Assembly: GCF_002556545.1 (NCBI RefSeq)
Contig: NZ_CP022685.1
Coordinates: 2,046,001-2,110,000, forward strand
Length of the DNA: 64,000 nucleotides
Reading direction: 5' to 3'
Source: Streptomyces formicae
GTDB taxonomy: Bacteria > Actinomycetota > Actinomycetes > Streptomycetales > Streptomycetaceae
A program made the position numbers and the translations under genes. This document shows positions 14,564 to 35,406 of the stretch, piece by piece (the first letter of the stretch is position 1; the number at the start of each line of letters is the position of its first letter). Under the pieces are notes generated by a model that did not search any database, was not told the DNA's origin, and saw only the letters and a list, made by a program, of their open reading frames with translations.

Positions 14564-14716
14564 GCCGGGTGGGTGGGGGAGGTGGTGACATCTTCCCCAC
14601 GTCCGGCGCGGCGGCACACGGGGGTTCGCGCAGTTCCCTGCCGGGTGGGTGGGGGAGGTGGTGGCATCTTCCCCCCGTCCGGTGCGACGGCACACGGGGG
14701 TTTCGCGCAGTTCCCC
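14564..14716. repeat. Tandem direct repeat, two copies of 76-77 bases
   Basis: Copy 1 is 14564-14639 and copy 2 is 14640-14716. Both begin GCCGGGTGGGTGGGGGAGG and end in a CGCGCAGTTCCC-type sequence; they differ at a handful of positions and a one-base insertion. The G-rich start could form a G-quadruplex on the plus strand. Copy 2 ends inside the dispersed element at 14703. Confidence 0.88.
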
Positions 14717-18238: not shown

Positions 18239-19155
18239 TGCGGCGCCCCCCGCCACCCGGAGACCGGCAGCGCGAACTTGGCGACGAGTCGATCCGTGAA
18301 CGACGCGTGGTGCAGCCGCGCGAGCCGCACCGGCACCTCGCCCCTGCGCACCTCGACCCGCGCCCCCGCGGGCAGTTCGACGGTCCGCCGCCCGTCGCAC
18401 CAGAGCACGCCGTGCGGCGTGTGCTGCTGGACCTCGACGGCGAGCACCGAGTCGGGCGAGGTCACCAGGGGCTTGGCGAACAGCGCGTGCGCGCTGATCG
18501 GCACCATGAGCAGCGCCTCGACCTCGGGCCAGACGACGGGACCGCCCGCCGAGAAGGCGTACGCCGTCGATCCCGTCGGCGTCGCGCAGACGATGCCGTC
18601 GCAGCCGAAGCCGGTGACGGGCCGCCCGTCGATCTCCAGGACGACCTCCAGCATCCGCTCGGGCGAGACCTTCTGGACCGCGGCCTCGTTGAGCGCCCAG
18701 TCGCGGTGCACGACGTCGCCGTTGCGGCGCACGACGACGTCGATCGTCATGCGCTCCTCGACCTCGTACGCCTTGGTGACCACGCGGTCGACGACCTTGT
18801 CGAGGTCGTCGCGCTCGGCCTCGGCGAGGAAGCCGACCCGGCCGAGGTTGACGCCGAGCATCGGCACCCCGGAGGCCCGGGCGAACTCGGCGCCGCGCAG
18901 CAGCGTCCCGTCGCCGCCGAGCACGACGATCAGCTCACAGTCGTCGATGCAGTCGGCGGTGGCCTCCTTGACCGTCTCGACCTCGTCGGGCAGCGGCAGG
19001 TCCTCGGCCTCCGCCTCCAGGACCCGTACGCCGAGGCCGCTGCGCAGCAGCCCCTGGACGACGAGTTCGGCGCTGCGGATGGCCGCGGGCCGTCCCGTGT
19101 GCGCGAGCAGGAAGACGGTACGAGCTCGGGTCTGGGTCACTCGGGTCTGGGTCAA
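18235..19155 (-). CDS. nadK: NAD kinase
   Basis: Phosphorylates NAD to NADP, using ATP or polyphosphate in actinobacteria. The 306-residue protein has the catalytic GGDGT at 80-84 in LIVVLGGDGTLLRGAEF, then VPMLGVNLGRVGFLAE and the NAD-binding VCATPTGSTAYAFSAGGPVVWPEV. The TTG start at 19155 overlaps the tlyA stop (TTGA) and has GGAGG seven bases upstream, so the genes are coupled. The first ten codons contain a 15-base tandem repeat giving MTQTR-VTQTR; the second copy begins with GTG at 19140, a possible second start. The same strand order tlyA-nadK is standard in actinobacteria. Confidence 0.96.
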   Translation of the reverse strand: MTQTRVTQTRARTVFLLAHTGRPAAIRSAELVVQGLLRSGLGVRVLEAEAEDLPLPDEVETVKEATADCIDDCELIVVLGGDGTLLRGAEFARASGVPMLGVNLGRVGFLAEAERDDLDKVVDRVVTKAYEVEERMTIDVVVRRNGDVVHRDWALNEAAVQKVSPERMLEVVLEIDGRPVTGFGCDGIVCATPTGSTAYAFSAGGPVVWPEVEALLMVPISAHALFAKPLVTSPDSVLAVEVQQHTPHGVLWCDGRRTVELPAGARVEVRRGEVPVRLARLHHASFTDRLVAKFALPVSGWRGAPH

Positions 19156-19967
19156 CGGGGCCCCTCCGCCACGGCACGGTCAACGTCCGCCGGGTCCAGT
19201 TCGGGAGCCCCGGCGCGCAGCCACAGAAAGTACTCGACGTTCCCCGAAGGCCCTGGCAGCGGGCTCGCGGTCACCCCGCGCACCCCGAGGCCGAGCCCCC
19301 ACGCCTGCCGCGCCACCTCGCGCACGGCCTCGGCCCGCAGTTCGGGGCTGCGCACCACGCCGCCGCTGCCGAGCCGCTCCTTGCCGACCTCGAACTGCGG
19401 CTTGACCATGAGCGCGAGGTCCGCGTCCGGCGCCGCGCACCGCACGAGGGCGGGCAGCACCAGGCCGAGCGGGATGAACGAGAGGTCGCCGACGACCAGG
19501 TCGACGGGGACGCCGTCGATGGCTTCGAGCGTCAACTCCCGTACGTTCGTACGGTCCTTCACGGTGACCCGGTCGTCACTCTGGAGGGACCACGCGAGCT
19601 GGCCGTAGCCGACGTCGACGGCGACGACGTGCGCGGCGCCCGCCCGGAGGAGCACGTCGGTGAAGCCGCCGGTGGAGGCGCCCGCGTCGAGCGCGCGCCG
19701 CCCCTCGACGACCAGCCCCCGCGGCCCGAAGGCGGCGAGCGCGCCCGCGAGCTTGTGCCCGCCGCGCGAGACGTAGTCGGGGTCGCTGTCGTCCTGCGAG
19801 ACCACGATCGCGGCGGCCGTCTCGACCTGGGTCGCGGCCTTGGTCGCGACGGTCTTGCCGACCGCGACCCGGCCTGCGGCGATCAGCTGGCTCGCGTGCT
19901 CGCGCGAGCGCGCGAGCTTCCTGCGGACGAGCTCGGCGTCGAGGCGGCGTCGTGCCACTCCTGCCAC
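19152..19967 (-). CDS. tlyA: TlyA-family rRNA (cytidine-2'-O)-methyltransferase
   Basis: Methylates the ribose of conserved cytidines in 16S and 23S rRNA in actinobacteria, which also affects capreomycin sensitivity. The 271-residue protein has an N-terminal S4 RNA-binding domain (about 5-65: RRRLDAELVRRKLARSREHASQLIAAGRV) and a Rossmann methyltransferase domain: YVSRGGHKLAGAL, then ALDAGASTGGFTDVLLRAGA as the SAM-binding loop, VVGDLSFIPL and LALMVKPQFEVG with the catalytic Lys. The older name haemolysin is misleading. Its 3' end overlaps nadK by four bases; upstream is the small acidic protein eight bases away. Confidence 0.95.
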   Translation of the reverse strand: MAGVARRRLDAELVRRKLARSREHASQLIAAGRVAVGKTVATKAATQVETAAAIVVSQDDSDPDYVSRGGHKLAGALAAFGPRGLVVEGRRALDAGASTGGFTDVLLRAGAAHVVAVDVGYGQLAWSLQSDDRVTVKDRTNVRELTLEAIDGVPVDLVVGDLSFIPLGLVLPALVRCAAPDADLALMVKPQFEVGKERLGSGGVVRSPELRAEAVREVARQAWGLGLGVRGVTASPLPGPSGNVEYFLWLRAGAPELDPADVDRAVAEGPR

Positions 19968-20325: not shown

Positions 20326-20673
20326 ATGGCGACCATGGCGGAGTGCCGCACCGCACTCGACAGACTCTCGGACAATCTCGCGTCCGCAGACGGCGACGTG
20401 CGCGGCGCCGTGGCCCTGAACCGCTCACTGAGCTGCCGCATCACCGATCTCGACGTCACCTTCACCGGGCGTCTGGAGAACGGCCGGATCACGGTGCTCG
20501 ACCACCATCCGGGCCCGCCCCGCGAGAAGGCCGAGATCCGCCTCGCGATGACCGGCGACGACCTCGTCGCGATGGTCTCCGGCGAGCTGAACTTCGCGAA
20601 GGCGTGGGCCTCGGGCCGGGTGAAGCTGGAGGCGGGCTTCCGGGATCTGCTGAAGCTCAGATCCCTGCTTTAG
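20326..20673 (+). CDS. SCP2 sterol-carrier-like domain protein
   Basis: A 115-residue single-domain protein of the SCP2 type: strands NRSLSCRITDLDVTFTGRLENGRITVLD, then AEIRLAMTGDDLVAMVSGELNFAKAWASGRVKLEAGFRDLLKL, where GELNFAKAWASGRVKLEG-type sequence is the family's late signature. SCP2 folds form a hydrophobic pocket for lipids or fatty acyl groups; the ligand is unknown here. Start ATG 20326 begins MATMAECR; a second ATG is three codons on. Its last 17 bases overlap the 3' end of the convergent siderophore ATPase gene, so there is no room for a terminator between them. Confidence 0.87.
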   Translation: MATMAECRTALDRLSDNLASADGDVRGAVALNRSLSCRITDLDVTFTGRLENGRITVLDHHPGPPREKAEIRLAMTGDDLVAMVSGELNFAKAWASGRVKLEAGFRDLLKLRSLL

Positions 20674-21469
20674 CCGGTGCCCTGCGCCCCGCGCGCGCCG
20701 CCGGGATCACCAGCGGCGTCCCCGTCTCCGGGTCGTCGATGATCTGGCAGCTGATCCCGAACGTCTGCTCCACGAGGTCCGCCGTGACGATGTCGGCGGG
20801 CGCGCCCTCGGCGACGACCGCGCCGTCGCGCAGCGCGATGAGGTGCGTGGCGTAGCGGGCGGCGTGGTTCAGGTCGTGCAGCACGGCGACGAGCGTGCGG
20901 CCCTGCTCCTCGTGGAGCTCGGCGCACAGGTCGAGGACGTCGATCTGGTGCTGGATGTCGAGGAACGTCGTGGGCTCGTCGAGGAGGAGCAGCGGGGTCT
21001 GCTGCGCCAGGGCCATCGCGATCCAGACGCGCTGGCGCTGGCCGCCGGAGAGTTCGTCGACATAGCGATCGGCGAGTTCGCGCACGCCGGTCGACTCCAT
21101 CGACGCGTCGACGATCCGCTCGTCGTCGTCCGACCACTGCCGCAGAAGGCCCTGGTGCGGATAGCGGCCGCGCGCCACCAGGTCGCCGACCGTGATCCCG
21201 TCGGGCGCGATGGACGACTGGGGCAGCAGGCCGAGCGTCTTGGCGACCTTCTTGGCGGGCATCGACTGGATGACGTTGCCGTCGAGCAGCACGCGGCCCT
21301 CGGACGGCTTCAGCATCCGGGACAGGGCGCGCAGCAGCGTCGACTTGCCGCAGGCGTTGGGGCCCACGATCACGGTGAAGGAGTTGTCGGGGATCTCGAC
21401 GGACAGCTTCTCCGCGATGACGCGCTGGTCATAGCCGAGGGTGACGTCGTCGGCGATGAGCCGGTTCAC
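20657..21469 (-). CDS. ABC transporter ATPase, ferric siderophore uptake
   Basis: FecE/FhuC-type ATPase that powers import of a ferric siderophore through the two FecCD permeases encoded just upstream. In the 270-residue form, Walker A GPNACGKST is at 36-44, the Q-loop at LLPQSS, the signature VDELSGGQRQRVWIAMALAQ and Walker B LLLLDEPTTFLDI followed by the switch His in AVLHDLNHAAR. I chose GTG 21469 because AGGAG lies nine bases upstream and conservation begins at NRLIADDVTLGYD. The frame is also open to an ATG at 21538 that overlaps the permease stop in ATGA, giving a 23-residue Pro/Arg-rich extension; this alternative is quite possible. Confidence 0.92.
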   Translation of the reverse strand: MNRLIADDVTLGYDQRVIAEKLSVEIPDNSFTVIVGPNACGKSTLLRALSRMLKPSEGRVLLDGNVIQSMPAKKVAKTLGLLPQSSIAPDGITVGDLVARGRYPHQGLLRQWSDDDERIVDASMESTGVRELADRYVDELSGGQRQRVWIAMALAQQTPLLLLDEPTTFLDIQHQIDVLDLCAELHEEQGRTLVAVLHDLNHAARYATHLIALRDGAVVAEGAPADIVTADLVEQTFGISCQIIDDPETGTPLVIPAARAGRRAPAKAGI

Positions 21470-21534
21470 AGCAGCACGCTCCTGGTCCTTGGGTAGTACG
21501 CGGTCCTGGGGTGGTACGGGTTCGCGGCGGGGCC

Positions 21535-22563
21535 TCATATGCGTCCCGCCTTGCGCTGCGTGACGAGCAGCCACAGCAGATAGACGCCGCCGAGCACGCC
21601 GGTGACGACGCCGACGGGCAGCTGGTCCGCGCCGAAGGCCCGCTGCGAGGCCCAGTCCGCGACGATCAGGAGCGTGGCGCCCATGAACATCGCGGGCATC
21701 AGGTTCGGGCCCGGCGAGCGGGTCAGGCGCCGGGCCAGTTGCGGTGCGGTGAGCGCGACGAAGGCGACCGGGCCCGCGGCGGCGGTGGCGGCCGCGGTCA
21801 GCAGCACGGAGGCGACCAGCAGCACCAGGCGGGTGCGTTCGACGCGCACGCCGAGCGCGCCCGCGACGTCGTCGCCCATCTCCAGCATCCGCAGCGGCCG
21901 CCCGTACACGAGCACGAGCGGTACGAGGACGGCACAGAGCGCGAGCAGCGGCCAGACCTGGTCCCAGTCGCGCCCGTTGAGGGATCCCGTCATCCAGACC
22001 ACGGCACGGGCGGCGTCCACGAAGTCGGCCTTGGTGAGCAGATAGCCGTTGACGGCCGTCATGAAGGCGGAGACGCCGATGCCGACGAGGACGAGCCGGT
22101 AGCCGTGCACGCCCCGCTTCCAGGCGAGCAGATAGATGGCGAGGCCGGTCACCAGACCGCCGACGAGCGCGCCGCCCGCGACCTCGACCGCGTCGCCCTG
22201 GAACAGGACGATCATCGTGAGCGCGCCCGCGGTCGACCCCTGTCCGAGGCCGAGCACGTCCGGGCTGCCCAGCGGGTTGCGCGCGATGGACTGGAAGAGC
22301 GCGCCGCCGAGACCGAGGGCCGCGCCGACGAGCAGTCCGACAAGGACCCGCGGAAGGCGCAGGTCGTTGATGATGAACTCCTGCCCCGCGTTGCCGTTGC
22401 CGAGCAGGGTGCGGACGACGTCGGCGGCGGGGATGGGGAAGTCGCCGGTGCCGATGAGGACGACGCTCGCGGCGAGCGCGGCCACAAGGAGCAGGGCGAC
22501 GACCACCGCGGTGCGGACGTCGAGCCGGACGGAGAGGCCGCCCCGGGTGCGTATCGCCTTCAC
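21535..22563 (-). CDS. FecCD-family siderophore ABC permease 2
   Basis: A 342-residue inner-membrane permease with about ten transmembrane helices. FecCD hallmarks are LRLPRVLVGLLVGAALGLGGALFQSIARNPLGSPDVLG, which includes the RNPL(A/G)xPxxLG motif that contacts the ATPase, and VAFVALTAPQLARRLTRSPG. GTG 22563 overlaps the previous permease's stop codon as GTGA. The pair of permeases probably forms a heterodimer. The C-terminus ends in a short basic tail at TGA 21535. Confidence 0.94.
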   Translation of the reverse strand: MKAIRTRGGLSVRLDVRTAVVVALLLVAALAASVVLIGTGDFPIPAADVVRTLLGNGNAGQEFIINDLRLPRVLVGLLVGAALGLGGALFQSIARNPLGSPDVLGLGQGSTAGALTMIVLFQGDAVEVAGGALVGGLVTGLAIYLLAWKRGVHGYRLVLVGIGVSAFMTAVNGYLLTKADFVDAARAVVWMTGSLNGRDWDQVWPLLALCAVLVPLVLVYGRPLRMLEMGDDVAGALGVRVERTRLVLLVASVLLTAAATAAAGPVAFVALTAPQLARRLTRSPGPNLMPAMFMGATLLIVADWASQRAFGADQLPVGVVTGVLGGVYLLWLLVTQRKAGRI

Positions 22564-23603
22564 AGCTGGGCCAACTTCCGCCGACGTACGAGAAGGATGA
22601 AGACGGGCGCGCCGATGACCGCGGTCACGATGCCCACCTGGAGCTCGGCGGGCCGCGCCACCACGCGGCCCACGACGTCCGCGCCGAGCAGCAGGACCGG
22701 CGAGAGGACGGCGGCGTACGGCAGGATCCAGCGCATGTCGGGTCCGGTGAAGGAGCGCACGATGTGCGGCACCATCAGACCGACGAAGACGATGGGCCCG
22801 CAGGCCGCCGTCGCCGCGCCGCACAGCAGGGTCGCGGCCGCCATGGACAGCGCGCGCGTACGCGTCAGATGGGCGCCGAGCGCGCGGGCGGTGTCGTCGC
22901 CCATGGCCATGGCGTTCAGCGGCCGGGCCAGGGAGAGGGCGAGCACGGTGCCGATCACGAGGAAGGGCAGCACCTGCTTGATGGTGTCCATGTTGGCGGA
23001 GGCCAGGGAGCCGACCGTCCAGAAGCGCATCTTGTTGAGCGCGGCGCCGTCCGTGATCATCACGGCCTGGAGATAGCCGTAGAGCGCGGCGCTGATGGCG
23101 GTGCCCGCGAGCGCGAGCCGCACGGGCGTCGCGCCGCGCGCGCCGCCGAGGATGTAGAGGAACACGCCGACGATCGCGGCGCCCGCGAAGGCGAACCACA
23201 CGTAGCCGCTGAGCGAGGTCACGCCGAAGAAGCTGATCGCGGTGACGACCGCGGCGGACGCGCCCAGGTTGATGCCGAGCAGCCCGGGGTCGGCCAGCGG
23301 GTTGCGGGTGAGTGCCTGGAGGACGGCGCCGGAGAGGCCGAGCGCGACACCGGCGAGCAGGCCGAGCAGGGTGCGGGCGAGCCGCTCGCCGACCACCACG
23401 TCCCCGTACGTCCCCGAGTCCTCGAACAGTCCGTGCCAGACCTGGTCCAGGGACATCGATTTCGCGCCGATCGCGATGCTCGTCAGGAAGAGGAGCAGCA
23501 GCACGAGCACCGACGCCAGCAGTCCGATGCTGCGTATCGCGCGGCGCTTGGGGGGCGCGGGAGCGGATTCCGCGCGGGGTTCTGGGGGACTGTCGACCAA
23601 CAC
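22560..23603 (-). CDS. FecCD-family siderophore ABC permease 1
   Basis: A 347-residue permease with about ten transmembrane helices and a short cytoplasmic Pro/Arg-rich N-terminus. It carries LARTLLGLLAGVALGLSGAVLQALTRNPLADPGLLGINLGAS and CGPIVFVGLMVPHIVRSFTGPD, the two FecCD signature regions. The GTG start at 23603 has no Shine-Dalgarno; the iron box begins five bases upstream, so the transcript is likely leaderless or nearly so and directly blocked when the repressor binds. It heads the permease-permease-ATPase operon and is divergent from the binding-protein gene. Confidence 0.94.
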   Translation of the reverse strand: MLVDSPPEPRAESAPAPPKRRAIRSIGLLASVLVLLLLFLTSIAIGAKSMSLDQVWHGLFEDSGTYGDVVVGERLARTLLGLLAGVALGLSGAVLQALTRNPLADPGLLGINLGASAAVVTAISFFGVTSLSGYVWFAFAGAAIVGVFLYILGGARGATPVRLALAGTAISAALYGYLQAVMITDGAALNKMRFWTVGSLASANMDTIKQVLPFLVIGTVLALSLARPLNAMAMGDDTARALGAHLTRTRALSMAAATLLCGAATAACGPIVFVGLMVPHIVRSFTGPDMRWILPYAAVLSPVLLLGADVVGRVVARPAELQVGIVTAVIGAPVFILLVRRRKLAQL

Positions 23604-23607
23604 CAGG

Positions 23608-23626
23608 TTAGGTTAGCCTACCCTCG
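23608..23626. promoter_or_regulatory. Iron box (DmdR/IdeR-type operator)
   Basis: TTAGGTTAGCCTACCCTCG matches 16 of 19 positions of the IdeR/DmdR consensus palindrome TTAGGTTAGSCTAACCTAA. It lies between two divergent siderophore-uptake transcripts, five bases from the permease start and 30 from the binding-protein start. It predicts repression of both operons by an iron-loaded DtxR-family regulator such as DmdR1. Confidence 0.85.
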
Positions 23627-23656
23627 CACTGCACTTCGATGAGAGAAGCGCCACCC

Positions 23657-24685
23657 ATGCCCGCATCCCGTCGCTCCCCCTCGACTGCCCTGAACCGCCG
23701 CGGCGTAATCACCGCGGGCGGCGCGCTCGGCGTCGGCGCGCTGCTCACCGCGTGCGGCGGCGGCAAGGAGAAACGGTCCGGCGGCGACACCAGGGCCTGG
23801 CGCTTCAAGGACGACCGCGGCAAGACCGCCACCGCCGAGCGACTCCCGAAGAACATCGTCGCCTTCGTCAGCACTGCCGCCGCCCTGCACGACTACGGCA
23901 TCGAGTGCACGGGCGTCTTCGGTCCCTCCGAGCACATCGACGGCAAGCCCAACCCGCAGGCGGGCGACCTCGACCTCACCGAGCTGACCAGCCTCGGCAC
24001 CGCGTGGGGCCAGTTCAACATCGAGAAGTACGCGGCCCTCGAACCCGACCTGCTGATCAGCAACATGTTCCCCGCGCCCGCCCTCTGGTTCGTCCCCGAG
24101 GAGAGCCGCGAGAAGATCGCCTCGCTCGCCCCGAGCGTCGGCATCAACGGCGCCCGCGTCTCCCTGGAGCAGCCGCTCAAGCGCTACACCGAACTGGCCA
24201 CCTCCCTCGGCGCCGACCTGGAGACCGACAAGGTGCGTGCCGCCAAGGCCCGCTTCCAGAAGGCCGAACGCACCCTGCGCAAGGCCGCGGCGGCAGGTCG
24301 CGGCCTCAAGGTCCTCGCCATGACGGGCGACGCCGACCAGATGTACGTCGCCGTCCCCGACTCCTACTGCGACCTGAACTACTTCAAGGACCTCGGCATC
24401 GAGTTCGTCGAGGGCGAGAAGAGCGACGAGTGGGGCTTCTGGGAGTTCCTCAGCTGGGAGAACGCCGACAAGTACCACGCCGACCTGATCATGATCGACA
24501 ACCGCACGACCGCGCTGCCCCCCGAGGAGCTCGCGAAGAAGCCCACCTGGGCCCGGCTCCCCGCCGTCAAGGCAGGACAGACCGTGGCCTGGTCGATGGA
24601 GGAGCGCTACAGCTACGCCGGATACGCCCCCGTCCTGGAGGGGCTCGCCACCGCAGTCGAGAAGTCGAAGAGGCTCAAGCGATGA
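23657..24685 (+). CDS. Siderophore-binding lipoprotein of an ABC importer
   Basis: A periplasmic-side substrate-binding protein (FepB/FhuD type, helical-backbone class) that hands a ferric siderophore to the divergent FecCD importer. From ATG 23657 the 342-residue protein has twin arginines at 14-15, a hydrophobic stretch and a lipobox LTAC with Cys 33, so it is probably a Tat-exported lipoprotein. The mature part has the typical NIVAFVSTAAALHDYGIE and ALEPDLLISN segments. An ATG at 23639 gives six more residues but has no ribosome site, while GAGAG lies upstream of 23657. Its stop overlaps the start of the siderophore-interacting protein (ATGA). Confidence 0.92.
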   Translation: MPASRRSPSTALNRRGVITAGGALGVGALLTACGGGKEKRSGGDTRAWRFKDDRGKTATAERLPKNIVAFVSTAAALHDYGIECTGVFGPSEHIDGKPNPQAGDLDLTELTSLGTAWGQFNIEKYAALEPDLLISNMFPAPALWFVPEESREKIASLAPSVGINGARVSLEQPLKRYTELATSLGADLETDKVRAAKARFQKAERTLRKAAAAGRGLKVLAMTGDADQMYVAVPDSYCDLNYFKDLGIEFVEGEKSDEWGFWEFLSWENADKYHADLIMIDNRTTALPPEELAKKPTWARLPAVKAGQTVAWSMEERYSYAGYAPVLEGLATAVEKSKRLKR

Positions 24686-25583: not shown

Positions 25584-26636
25584 TCACACCCCGAGCCGGG
25601 ACAGCGCCTTGCCCGCGTCGAGCGCGCACGTGCCCTCCCCTGCCTCGGTCCAGGCCGCCGCGCACAGCGCCCGCAGCCCGTCGATGACCTCGCCCTCGCC
25701 GTCGAGCCCGAGCTCGTCGCCCCGCACCGAAGCGGTCCACCCACCACAGCTGAACCCGCCCTCCACGGCGGCGACTTCGGGCTGCCCGGTGAGCATGCCG
25801 CGCAGATCGGCGTCGACATACGTCGGCCGGTGCTCGGGCGGCGCGGCAAGGAGCTGCGCCCCGTCCGTGACCCCGGTCAGGACGAGGAGCGAGTCCACCT
25901 CTCCGTTGAACGCCCCCTCGATGTCCGTGTCCAGGCGGTCGCCCACGACCAACGGCCGCTCCGCGCCCGTCCGCAGGATCGTCTCCCGGTGCATCGGGGG
26001 CAGCGGCTTCCCCGCGACCTGCGGCTCCGCGCCCGTCGCGATGCGTACGACCTCGACGGCCGCGCCATTGCCCGGCGCGATGCCCCGCGCGCTCGGAATC
26101 GTCAGGTCCGTGTTGGACGCGAACCACGGAAGGCCGCGCGTGATCGCGTAACTGGCCTCGGCGAACCGTCCCCACGCCATGTCGGGCCCGCCGTACCCCT
26201 GCACGACCGCCACCGGATCGTCGTCCGCCGACTCCACGGGCTCCAGCCCCCGCTCCCGGAGCGCCACCCGCAGCCCTTCCCCGCCGATCACCAACACCCG
26301 GGCCCCGGCAGGCACTTGCTCACTCACGAGCCGGGCGGCCGCCTGCGCGGACGTGATGACGTCCGAGGCCCCGGTCGGGATCCCCAGCTCCGTCAGATGC
26401 TCCGCCACCGCGTCCGGAGTGCGCAGCGCGTTGTTCGTGACGTACGCCAGGTGCATGCCGCCCTCGCGCGCGGTGCCCAGCGAATCGACGGCGTGCGCGA
26501 TGGCGTGCCCGCCCGCGTAGACCACCCCGTCCAGATCGAGCAGCGCCGTGTCATAGCCCTCGCTCAGCGCCCGCGCGCTGCCCTCGGGCCGCGTCCTGAC
26601 GCTCCGGTCCGCGCCGCCGTCTGCGGTCTGGCTCAT
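25584..26636 (-). CDS. HAD-IIA family hydrolase (NagD-like phosphatase)
   Basis: A 350-residue cytoplasmic phosphatase. Motif I is ALLDLDGVVYAGG with the nucleophilic Asp, motif II is YVTNNALRTP, the C2-type cap follows (VVQGYGGPDMAWGRFAEA), and motifs III/IV are VAGKPLPPMHRETI and VVGDRLDTDIEGAFNGEVDSLLVLTGV. Substrates of this group include phosphoglycolate, p-nitrophenyl phosphate and nucleotide monophosphates, so the real substrate is open. The last 70 residues are an actinobacterial extension. I chose ATG 26636, with GAGGAG nine bases upstream, over an ATG 13 codons earlier. Divergent from the DUF1015 gene across 72 bases. Confidence 0.9.
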   Translation of the reverse strand: MSQTADGGADRSVRTRPEGSARALSEGYDTALLDLDGVVYAGGHAIAHAVDSLGTAREGGMHLAYVTNNALRTPDAVAEHLTELGIPTGASDVITSAQAAARLVSEQVPAGARVLVIGGEGLRVALRERGLEPVESADDDPVAVVQGYGGPDMAWGRFAEASYAITRGLPWFASNTDLTIPSARGIAPGNGAAVEVVRIATGAEPQVAGKPLPPMHRETILRTGAERPLVVGDRLDTDIEGAFNGEVDSLLVLTGVTDGAQLLAAPPEHRPTYVDADLRGMLTGQPEVAAVEGGFSCGGWTASVRGDELGLDGEGEVIDGLRALCAAAWTEAGEGTCALDAGKALSRLGV

Positions 26637-26708
26637 TACACATCGCTCCTCGCTCGATCCCACTCCCCCGATCATCGCTTATGCCACTGACACACATACG
26701 ATGCCCTA

Positions 26709-28066: not shown

Positions 28067-30079
28067 TCAGTCCTTGTCGCCCTCGGCGCTCTTGTCGCCC
28101 TCGGCGTCGGAGGAGACCCGGCGCTCGACGACCTCGGCAACCTCGTCCGTCCCGTCGACCTCGTCGTCACCGAGCGCGTCGACGAACTCGACACCGTCCA
28201 GCTCGGCGAGCCGGTCGGAGGCGTCGGTGCTGCCGTCCTTGTCGGACTCGACGGCCTTGGCGAACCACTCGCGCGCCTCGGCCTCACGGCCCGCGGCCAG
28301 CAGCGCGTCGGCGTACGCGTACCGCAGTCGCGCCGTCCAGGGCTGCACGGAGTTCGCGGCCAGCTCGGGGCTCTGCAACGTGACGATGGCGGCATCGATC
28401 TGGTCCAGGTCGCGCCGGGCCCCCGCGGCCACGAGCCGCATCTCGACCTGACCGGCCTTGTCCAGCTTCTGCACCTCCGGCGCACCGGCCATCTCCAGCG
28501 CCTTCTCGGGCCGGCCGAGCCCACGCTCGCAGTCCGCCATGACGGGCCACAGCTCGACGCTGCCGGTCATCCGCCGCGCGGCACGGAACTCCGCCAGTGC
28601 CTCGCTGTACTTCTGGTTCGCGTACGCGGCGAAACCCGCTGCCTCACGCACGGCGGCGACCCTGGAGGCCAGCCGCAGCGCGATCCGCGAGTAGGCGTAC
28701 GCCTGCTCGGGGTCCTCGTCGATGAGCTTGGCGACCATCACCAGGTTCCTGGCGACGTCCTCCGCGAGCCCCTTGGGAAGGCTCTGCAGCTCCTGCTGCA
28801 CGTCCTTGTCGATCTCGTACCCGGTGACGTCGTCCGGGATCGGCAGCCGCCTGATGGGCTCGCGGTCACGGTCGTCGCGCCCGCGGTAGCCCCCGCGGTC
28901 GCCGTCGCGCCGGTCGTCCCTGCGGTCGTCACGCCGGTCATCACGCCCACGGAAGCCGCCTCGGTCGCCGCTGGAACGCCCGCCCCGGTCGTCACGGCGC
29001 GGCCCACGCCCGCGGTCGTCGCGCCCACGGTCGTCCCGACCCCGGAACCCGCCACCACCACGGTTGTCATCACGCCGGAAGCCACCGCGGTCGCCATCGC
29101 GCCGGTCGTCCCTGCGGTCGTCGCGCCGGTCGTCACGCCCACGGTAGCCACCGCGGTCGCCATCGCGACGGTCATCGCGACGGTCATCGCGACGATCGTC
29201 ACGGCGGTTGTCGTCTCGGCGGTCGTCGCTGCGGAAGGCGGGGCGGTCGCCGTCGCGGCGGAAGCCGGGACGGTCGCCATCACGCCGGAAGCCACCACGG
29301 TCGCCGCCACGGCTGTCCCCGCCGCGGTCGTCACGGCGGGGCCCGCTGGGACGGTCATCGCGCCGGAACGGCGGACGCCCGCCACCACCACGGTTGTCAT
29401 CACGCCCGCGGTAGCCACCACCACGGTTGTCATCGCGGCCACGGAAACCGCCACCACGGTTGTCATCACGACGGTCGTCACGGCGGTCATCGCGGCGATC
29501 GTCACGGCCACGGAAACCACCACGGTCGCCGCCACGGTTGTCGTCACGCCGGTCGTCACGCCCACGGAAACCGCCACCGCGGTTGTCGTCGCGACGGTTG
29601 TCGTCACGGCGGAAGCCACCACGGTCCGGACGGTCCCCGCCCCTGCGGTCGTCTCGGCGGTCGTCGCTGCGGAAGGCGGGGCGGTCGCCGTCGCGGCGGA
29701 AGCCGGGACGGTCACCATCACGCCGGAAGCCACCGCGGCTGTCGCCGCCGCGGTCGTCACGGCGGGGCCCGCTGGGACGGTCATCGCGCCGGAACGGCGG
29801 ACGGCCGCCACCACCACGGTTGTCATCACGCCCGCGGTAGCCACCACCACGGTTGTCGTCACGGCCACGGAAGCCGCCACCACGGTTGTCGTCACGACGG
29901 TCGTCACGCCGGTCATCGCGGCGATCGTCACGGCCACGGAAACCACCACGGTCGCCGCCGCGGTTGTCGTCACGCCGGTCGTTGTCCCGGCGCGGAGCAC
30001 CGCGGTACCCGCCCCGGTCGCCACCGTCCCGGCCGCGCTGGTCGCGCTCCGGTCGCTCGTCGGGAGAGTTGGTGGACAT
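28067..30079 (-). CDS. Arg/Asp/Gly-repeat protein with C-terminal TPR-like domain
   Basis: A 670-residue protein in two unlike halves. Residues 1 to about 408 consist almost wholly of R, D, G, N and some F/Y in repeats such as DNRGGGFRGR, DDRRDD and RRDGDRPGF, including many RGG-like motifs. This part is disordered and resembles RNA-binding RGG regions. Residues 35-117 and 177-259 are identical, a 426-base tandem duplication in the DNA. Residues about 410-640 are helical and TPR-like (LAEDVARNLVMVAKLIDEDPEQAYAYSRIA, YANQKYSEALAEFRAA, PEKALEMAG), and the C-terminus is acidic (VEFVDALGDDEVDGTDEV). ATG 30079 is preceded by AGGAGT. It lies directly downstream of the rRNA operon on the same strand, beyond the terminator. 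Function is unknown; RNA or ribosome association is inference. Confidence 0.88.
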   Translation of the reverse strand: MSTNSPDERPERDQRGRDGGDRGGYRGAPRRDNDRRDDNRGGDRGGFRGRDDRRDDRRDDRRDDNRGGGFRGRDDNRGGGYRGRDDNRGGGGRPPFRRDDRPSGPRRDDRGGDSRGGFRRDGDRPGFRRDGDRPAFRSDDRRDDRRGGDRPDRGGFRRDDNRRDDNRGGGFRGRDDRRDDNRGGDRGGFRGRDDRRDDRRDDRRDDNRGGGFRGRDDNRGGGYRGRDDNRGGGGRPPFRRDDRPSGPRRDDRGGDSRGGDRGGFRRDGDRPGFRRDGDRPAFRSDDRRDDNRRDDRRDDRRDDRRDGDRGGYRGRDDRRDDRRDDRRDGDRGGFRRDDNRGGGGFRGRDDRGRDDRGRGPRRDDRGGRSSGDRGGFRGRDDRRDDRRDDRRDGDRGGYRGRDDRDREPIRRLPIPDDVTGYEIDKDVQQELQSLPKGLAEDVARNLVMVAKLIDEDPEQAYAYSRIALRLASRVAAVREAAGFAAYANQKYSEALAEFRAARRMTGSVELWPVMADCERGLGRPEKALEMAGAPEVQKLDKAGQVEMRLVAAGARRDLDQIDAAIVTLQSPELAANSVQPWTARLRYAYADALLAAGREAEAREWFAKAVESDKDGSTDASDRLAELDGVEFVDALGDDEVDGTDEVAEVVERRVSSDAEGDKSAEGDKD
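29210..29977 (-). repeat. Intragenic tandem duplication of period 426 bases
   Basis: 29648-29977 and 29210-29551 encode the same repeat block of about 110 residues, identical for the first 83 and then differing by a four-residue DRGG insertion. Smaller 9-12 base repeats pervade 28860-30050. Such an array can expand or contract by recombination and is easily misassembled. Confidence 0.85.
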
Positions 30080-30153
30080 CGGTGACTCCTAGTCTTCGGT
30101 ACCGCAGTCATTCTCGCGCAGCCGGGATGCCGGCGCGCTTCGACAAAAACAAA

Positions 30154-30195
30154 AGGACCCCTGGTCCCAGCGTGGACGCTGGGACCAGGGGTCCT
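30154..30195 (-). terminator. Intrinsic terminator of the rRNA operon
   Basis: Perfect 19-bp stem (arms 30154-30172 and 30177-30195) with a 4-base loop, followed in the transcribed direction by TTTTGTTTTTGTC. It begins ten bases beyond the 5S gene and is the strongest U-tract terminator in the window besides the one at 38161. Confidence 0.93.
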
Positions 30196-30204
30196 CCAAA
30201 AATT

Positions 30205-30323
30205 GTTCGGCGGCGTCCTACTCTCCCACAGGGTCCCCCCTGCAGTACCATCGGCGCTTTGAGGCTTAGCTTCCGGGTTCGGAATGTAACCGGGCGTTTC
30301 CCTCACGCTATGACCACCGAAAC
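30205..30323 (-). rRNA. rrf: 5S ribosomal RNA
   Basis: About 119 bases. Read on the minus strand it starts GTTTCGGTGGTCATAGCGTG and ends AGTAGGACGCCGCCGAAC, the usual Streptomyces 5S termini, which pair with each other to form helix I. CCGAACCCGGAAGCTAAGC in the middle is the conserved loop region. Ends are accurate to a few bases. Confidence 0.95.

Positions 30324-30459: not shown

Positions 30460-35406
<4,947 letters not shown>

Follow-up and report, generated by a model that had tools for sequence, protein, structure and literature searches.

An RGG-tailed TPR protein encoded behind a Streptomyces rRNA operon belongs to an actinobacterial family of rrn-linked, arginine-tailed TPR proteins

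Here we describe a gene of Streptomyces formicae whose start codon lies 126 nt behind the 5S rRNA gene of an rRNA (rrn) operon, on the same strand. The whole 64,000-nucleotide stretch of DNA that was analysed is referred to as the window, and the features of the locus, given in the direction of transcription, are as follows.

33881..35406, minus strand: 16S rRNA
30460..33582, minus strand: 23S rRNA
30205..30321, minus strand: 5S rRNA
30153..30196, minus strand: terminator-like hairpin between 5S and the gene, 20-pair stem with a T-rich tail
30110..30115, minus strand: GAGAAT, a -10-like element by consensus only, with no clear -35
30086..30090, minus strand: AGGAG, likely ribosome-binding site, conserved in an alignment of Streptomyces-type intergenic stretches
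28067..30079, minus strand: CDS of 670 aa, with Arg/Asp/Gly tail, TPR domain and acidic end (ORF list, translation, Pfam)
28859..30079, minus strand: low-complexity tail, residues 1-407; 34% R, 26% D, 22% G; 25 RGG (composition)
29729..29980, minus strand: first copy of an exact 84-residue duplication, residues 34-117
29303..29554, minus strand: second copy of the same duplication, residues 176-259
28169..28858, minus strand: TPR domain, about residues 408-637 (AlphaFold2 mean pLDDT 92.3; Pfam TPR_19; fold matches)
28070..28168, minus strand: acidic C-terminal end of low model confidence, about residues 638-670 (model and composition)

The reading frame opens with an ATG at 30079 and continues to 28067 on the minus strand without an internal stop. 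The original prediction, made from the letters of the window, had described an Arg/Asp/Gly repeat region with many RGG motifs, a TPR-like helical domain and an acidic tail, encoded beside a complete rRNA operon on the same strand, and each of these elements was found: a repeat region of 407 aa with 25 RGG, a domain that scores above the TPR_19 cut-off, an acidic stretch of approximately 33 residues at the C-terminal end, and 16S, 23S and 5S genes directly upstream on the minus strand. The prediction was also right that the tail contains an exact internal duplication, which is 84 rather than 83 residues long. Residues 1-407, which are presumably disordered, comprise 137 R, 107 D, 91 G, 17 P, 17 F and 14 N, and RGG motifs cluster in them beyond what this composition would lead one to expect (25, versus a mean of 6.8 and a maximum of 15 in 2000 same-composition shuffles). 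Other recurrent motifs are FRGR (7), YRGR (4) and DDRRDD (15). The net charge of +27 over 407 residues is close to balanced, which could weaken RNA binding by the Streptomyces tail. Public protein records of the window gene (P0003-P0007) carry part of the tail in a different reading frame and, because they change frame there, indels or gene-calling errors seem common in the tail repeat.

Comparison of the C-terminal domain with known structures, a check proposed with the original prediction, returned TPR proteins as the best matches. The AlphaFold2 model of the domain, built from a 63-sequence alignment, contains 14 helices arranged as tandem helix pairs in a superhelix. At the sequence level the window protein matches PF14559 (TPR_19) with 27.2 bits against a cut-off of 25, and TPR_19 and TPR_14 each match 45 of the 63 members of alignment A2 (E <= 0.001). 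Pfam found only generic TPR models in the window protein, NCBIfam gave no match for it and only TPR models below cut-off for its relatives, and a PDB sequence search returned weak matches or mainly designed TPR chains. A common TPR fold shows no function, and the fold match is thus no functional pointer.

A query with the C-terminal domain matched 56 of the 61 genomes in the set of relatives. Such a long arginine-rich repeat joined to TPRs had been called unusual, a claim that needs qualifying, as 35 of the 36 genomes sampled within the genus have the domain, and the sole miss is a genome that is 79% complete. Across 296 Actinomycetota genomes, a search with alignment A1 matched 125 and a search with the broader alignment A2 matched 170 (E <= 0.001). 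The A2 matches split into 126 genomes with a best E of 7.1e-42 or lower and 44 with a best E of 1.4e-11 or weaker, the listed matches of the latter being mainly short stretches, as expected from generic TPRs. Because of this gap, only the 126 genomes above it were taken to carry an orthologue. The remaining 170 of the 296 sampled genomes have no orthologue at this gap, and much of the phylum therefore manages without the gene. The query from locus L152 had its best named matches in Mycolicibacterium and Mycobacterium.

The position of the gene behind an rrn operon is not local to the window but extends across the phylum. Using the window rRNAs as blastn queries, we surveyed 120 loci from 119 of the 126 orthologue genomes; outside these loci were the genome of the window itself (G000), four others of the same genus (G013, G161, G279 and G342), G082 and G134, of which G013 proved linked and G134 unlinked from separate positions, while G082, G161, G279 and G342 stand outside the linkage counts. 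In 87 of the 120 loci, same-strand rRNA lies no more than 3 kb upstream of the TPR domain, with a 5S in 85 and a 16S only in L169 and L192. A further two loci have rRNA 4-6 kb upstream, ten have none in the available 3.5-7.0 kb, and in 21 the contig ends within 2 kb before any rRNA appears; an opposite-strand rRNA match was found in none of the 120. Since loci with shorter upstream sequence count only if rRNA shows, the ratio was restricted to the 61 loci in which 3 kb or more of upstream sequence is available, among which 49 have same-strand rRNA within 3 kb (48 of them a 5S), two have it at 4-6 kb and ten have none. With at least 6.5 kb upstream, 41 of 50 loci are linked, and 38 of the 59 shorter loci are rRNA-linked as well.

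Counts of linked, rRNA-free, far and contig-edge loci are 7/0/0/0 for Streptomyces, 17/2/0/5 for the rest of its class and 63/8/2/16 for other classes. At least one linked locus occurs in 23 of 30 family codes; of the other seven, four (f23, f26, f32 and f65) contain only rRNA-free loci and three (f5, f29 and f67) only contig edges. A named set of near relatives (79 Streptomyces and one Streptantibioticus) has a 5S upstream in 60 of 80 loci, the other 20 reach a contig edge in under 2.2 kb, and there are no counterexamples. A random gene would satisfy the linkage condition in about 0.1% of cases or fewer, estimated as the number of rrn operons times 3 kb divided by twice the genome size. We give no p-value because the genomes are related, but the linkage between rrn and TPR gene is far above chance. 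In 24 chosen genomes the gene is linked in 20, and among the ten of these with a single 23S match it follows that rrn in six. The S. formicae genome contains six matches to a 601-base 23S probe, and the operon in the window is therefore probably one of six.

Genome G255 contains two rrn-TPR units that are 99.2% identical over 6678 columns, the duplicated block beginning about 0.4 kb ahead of the 16S and stopping no more than 25 nt from where the TPR frame ends. One unit has a TyrRS gene upstream and no detected downstream partners; the other is followed by HAD, TlyA, NADK and RecN genes, as would be expected had an ancestral block been divided by recombination between them. The TPR gene can therefore be duplicated or homogenised along with the operon.

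Several rRNA arrangements in these loci are recorded here as observations in their own right. Two same-strand 23S matches lie about 7.5 kb apart just before the TPR gene at G117:C1:1083543-1092248, probably two tandem rrn operons. In ten loci from several distant actinobacterial families (L158, L167, L168, L185, L197, L204, L209, L210, L216 and L236) the match to the window 23S is interrupted by gaps of about 0.3-2 kb that resemble intron- or IVS-like insertions at recurrent points. At L192:785-2741 a 16S match in two pieces about 430 nt apart adjoins the TPR gene with no intervening 23S, and the rRNA genes of this genome seem to be unlinked.

Directly behind the 5S and on the same strand, the window gene occupies the position of a distal rRNA-operon cistron. 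Because a strong terminator-like hairpin separates it from the 5S, we describe it as adjacent to the operon and not plainly inside it. Alignment of 96 Streptomyces-type intergenic stretches, some sharing one genome, showed the AAT of GAGAAT at 95% or more, and the hairpin together with this conserved AAT would suggest termination followed by a promoter of the gene's own. We accordingly rejected the idea that the TPR gene is a mere part of the Streptomyces rRNA transcript, against which stand the 20-pair hairpin and then the conserved AAT and AGGAG, while read-through of the hairpin into the gene is possible. A hairpin with a T-rich tail was scored in 42 of 85 loci with a 5S by an automatic criterion that misses hairpins without T-tracts. 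Some distant loci place the start codon a few tens of nucleotides after the hairpin, a gap that would fit read-through and would also fit a leaderless promoter.

The main alternative to a role connected with rRNA is that the gene has simply kept an inherited place in an old block of genes, with a function unrelated to rRNA. Two members of the presumed block in the window are needed for this comparison.

25584..26675, minus strand: HAD phosphatase with a GNAT-like C-terminal domain; in some relatives it adjoins the TPR gene or is fused with it
19152..19967, minus strand: TlyA-type S4-FtsJ methyltransferase, member of the putative ancestral cluster

TlyA methylates rRNA. Among 117 loci with at least 2.5 kb downstream, same-strand neighbours within 4 kb were HAD in 45, TlyA in 36, NADK in 28 and RecN in 26; these counts come from Streptomyces queries, which undercount in distant classes, and the HAD figure leaves out three matches that overlap the end of the TPR domain. 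On the upstream side, 22 loci include a 16S and extend 900 nt or more beyond it; TyrRS was found there in 11 (on the opposite strand in two) with one mycobacterial query, an insensitive survey, and Pfam identified a W/Y synthetase domain in six of ten upstream frames, four of these six also having a TyrRS C-terminal domain. From the upstream and downstream partners taken together, the ancestral order looks like tyrS-rrn-TPR-HAD-TlyA-NADK-RecN, which agrees with rrnB lying downstream of tyrS in several mycobacteria, as stated in PMC10218544.

Several exceptions to linkage fit inheritance of such a block. In G066, G080 and G094 (L182, L191 and L199) only 6-71 nt and no rRNA separate an upstream TyrRS-type gene from the TPR domain match; in G150 and G200, which carry the genus code of a query whose best named matches are Mycolicibacterium, the distance is 0.7 kb (L220) and 4 kb (L143). 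G075 and G285 each have one 23S match, which is found upstream in the same orientation at a distance of 12.5 and 40 kb, respectively. No linkage is seen in G134, where about 695 kb separate the gene from its rrn, or in G200. Against an inherited position as the whole explanation, the rrn-TPR pair (49 of 61) is retained more often than the other pairs measured, though the protein queries are less sensitive. Furthermore, in the window the gene ahead of the 16S encodes a DNA glycosylase, and HAD, TlyA, NADK and RecN are scattered over about 13 kb, yet rrn and TPR gene are still together. Inheritance of position also leaves the arginine-rich tails unexplained, and we regard it as rather unlikely to be the full account. 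Two further features of this part of the window were noted: uptake genes at 20657-24685 that separate HAD from tlyA and are absent at this place in relatives (Pfam identified FecCD and an ABC ATPase, and a binding-protein-like ORF at 23639-24685 was recognised by eye), and a two-copy tandem repeat of a 76-bp unit at 14564-14715, adjoining recN.

Tails were compared in the 85 loci with a 5S (7 Streptomyces, 17 of the same class and 61 of other classes), where they range from 6 to 700 aa when started at the earliest in-frame ATG or GTG at least 25 nt behind the 5S, a rule that may over- or underestimate length. Of the 73 tails with at least 20 aa, 72 contain at least 15% Arg, against TPR-domain medians of 9-11% Arg, and median net charge per residue in the three groups is +0.08, +0.08 and +0.12. 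Within the named near-relative set the tails measure 207-539 aa (59 loci, some with leader residues or a flipped frame), and long tails are also found outside Streptomyces. At the other extreme are tails of 6-21 aa in f48, f24 and one f54 locus, and tails of 43-62 aa in three mycobacteria-type loci. Homologues lacking the repeat region had been named in advance as evidence against the original prediction, and these short-tailed proteins answer that description in part, though they are still encoded behind rrn. What homologues keep is the arginine-rich composition and not the length or a long RGG region. Given arginine-richness in 72 of 73 tails and such disparate lengths, the arginine-rich tail is a widespread trait and the long R/D/G repeat a lineage elaboration outside the family core; orthologues whose tails are as short as 6-21 aa show that the mechanism cannot lie in the tail alone.

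This variation in length, within Streptomyces as across the phylum, and the internal duplications of the window tail would be expected if the tail were a functionless repeat-expansion by-product of high-GC DNA and only the TPR domain mattered. The near-constant arginine-richness of tails argues against this, as does the divergence between repeat copies. The DNA of the two 84-residue copies differs at 10 of 252 positions, every one a third codon position, and duplicated stretches of 84 and 25 codons together show 11 synonymous and no non-synonymous differences, where 26% of random single changes would be synonymous; as the 84-residue seed was picked by amino-acid identity, this pattern is supportive only. 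We consider a functionless tail improbable. It is more doubtful still that the TPR protein is a partner or regulator of the downstream HAD phosphatase, forming one unit with it to which RNA is incidental: the two share a single open frame in G306 and G312, of one genus code (L060/L150 and L052/L219), and HAD follows on the same strand in the 45 of 117 loci counted above, but it goes undetected beside the gene in most other-class loci (with a Streptomyces query), the two are separated in the window by a DUF1015 gene on the other strand, and nothing in this proposal gives a reason for the tail.

The reading that accounts for linkage, tail and polymerase pull-down (see below) together is that of a TPR adaptor, tethered to RNA, that takes part in synthesising rRNA or in assembling ribosomes, and we give it about an even chance of being correct. 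We infer that the basic, flexible N-terminal tail would bind RNA with little sequence specificity and would attach the protein to pre-ribosomes or to nascent pre-rRNA. The TPR superhelix, which is conserved, would dock a protein partner, candidates being RNA polymerase, an elongation factor acting with it, an enzyme that matures rRNA, or an assembly factor. Genomic context speaks for such a role too, as tyrS and the gene of the rRNA methyltransferase TlyA are among the neighbours. In Streptomyces the tail would have grown into an R/D/G polyampholyte of roughly 200-540 aa with more valency, which could support clustering. The original prediction of an RNA- or ribosome-associated scaffold thus gains weight in its link to rRNA, from the phylum-wide rrn linkage, the arginine-rich tails and co-purification with polymerase, and loses the long RGG/RD repeat as an essential part, given the short-tailed orthologues. 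The genomes that retain the gene where rrn is absent from its side can be counted against the adaptor, as can the 170 sampled genomes with no orthologue and the near-balanced charge of the Streptomyces tail.

A more ambitious version of the adaptor would make the protein a dedicated actinobacterial scaffold of rRNA biogenesis, and its gene the last cistron of an ancestral rRNA operon. Read-through of the hairpin after the 5S would then couple expression of the gene to that of rRNA, the protein would be made beside the operon that it serves, its arginine-rich tail would bind nascent rRNA and its TPR domain would recruit polymerase or assembly factors, with a nucleolus-like organiser as the outcome in Streptomyces. 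We think it unlikely that this full version holds.

On a practical level, a gene tied to rrn across a phylum, whose product has a tail of RNA-binding-like character, is a candidate for a factor by which actinobacteria synthesise rRNA or assemble ribosomes, and the family, with natural tails of anywhere between 6 and 700 aa, lends itself to comparative work on bacterial Arg-rich disordered tails. Within this actinobacterial family, whose TPR proteins are rrn-linked, Arg-tailed and without assigned function, the S. formicae protein represents Streptomyces. We found no report of phylum-wide rrn linkage among titles and the beginnings of abstracts in the open literature, where it may still be reported, and SCO1790, a tag guessed from gene order, had no literature match.

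The closest known counterpart is the mycobacterial protein Rv1691/MSMEG_3754, which has both its domain type and its gene order in common with the family, Rv1691 being compared by published gene order. The order given in PMC3072309 is lprJ, Rv1691, Rv1692, Rv1693, tlyA, ppnK, recN, and mycobacteria-type loci in our survey read TPR-HAD-TlyA-NADK-RecN; in contrast to the 407 residues of the window protein, the Arg-rich tail is short in these loci, at 43-62 aa in three. MSMEG_3754, the Rv1691 orthologue, is among 214 high-confidence proteins of an anti-RNA-polymerase pull-down from M. smegmatis, and co-purified with RNA polymerase with no recoverable DNA, according to PMC7092591; a crosslinked RNA-polymerase pull-down brings many proteins. 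The same protein appears in the ClpC1 interactome in PMC10433963, a listing that is unspecific. A survey of prokaryotic low-complexity regions links Arg-rich regions with RNA binding and processing (PMC6821194). The TPR superhelix is common to the window domain and the bacterial proteins TTC0263, YrrB, MamA, PilF and Rap, from which it differs in sequence, with only about 9-20% identity.

Among eukaryotic RNA-binding proteins with RGG/GAR regions, nucleolin, fibrillarin and Gar1 combine a long RGG-rich region with a link to rRNA. The window protein has both features in common with them but lacks an RRM or enzyme domain and has an Asp-rich tail, and we claim no homology. U1-70K contains a mixed-charge Arg/Asp region, and the alternating R and D blocks of the window tail (the 15 DDRRDD) resemble it by analogy only; the window protein differs in that its R/D blocks are joined with RGG motifs and a TPR domain.
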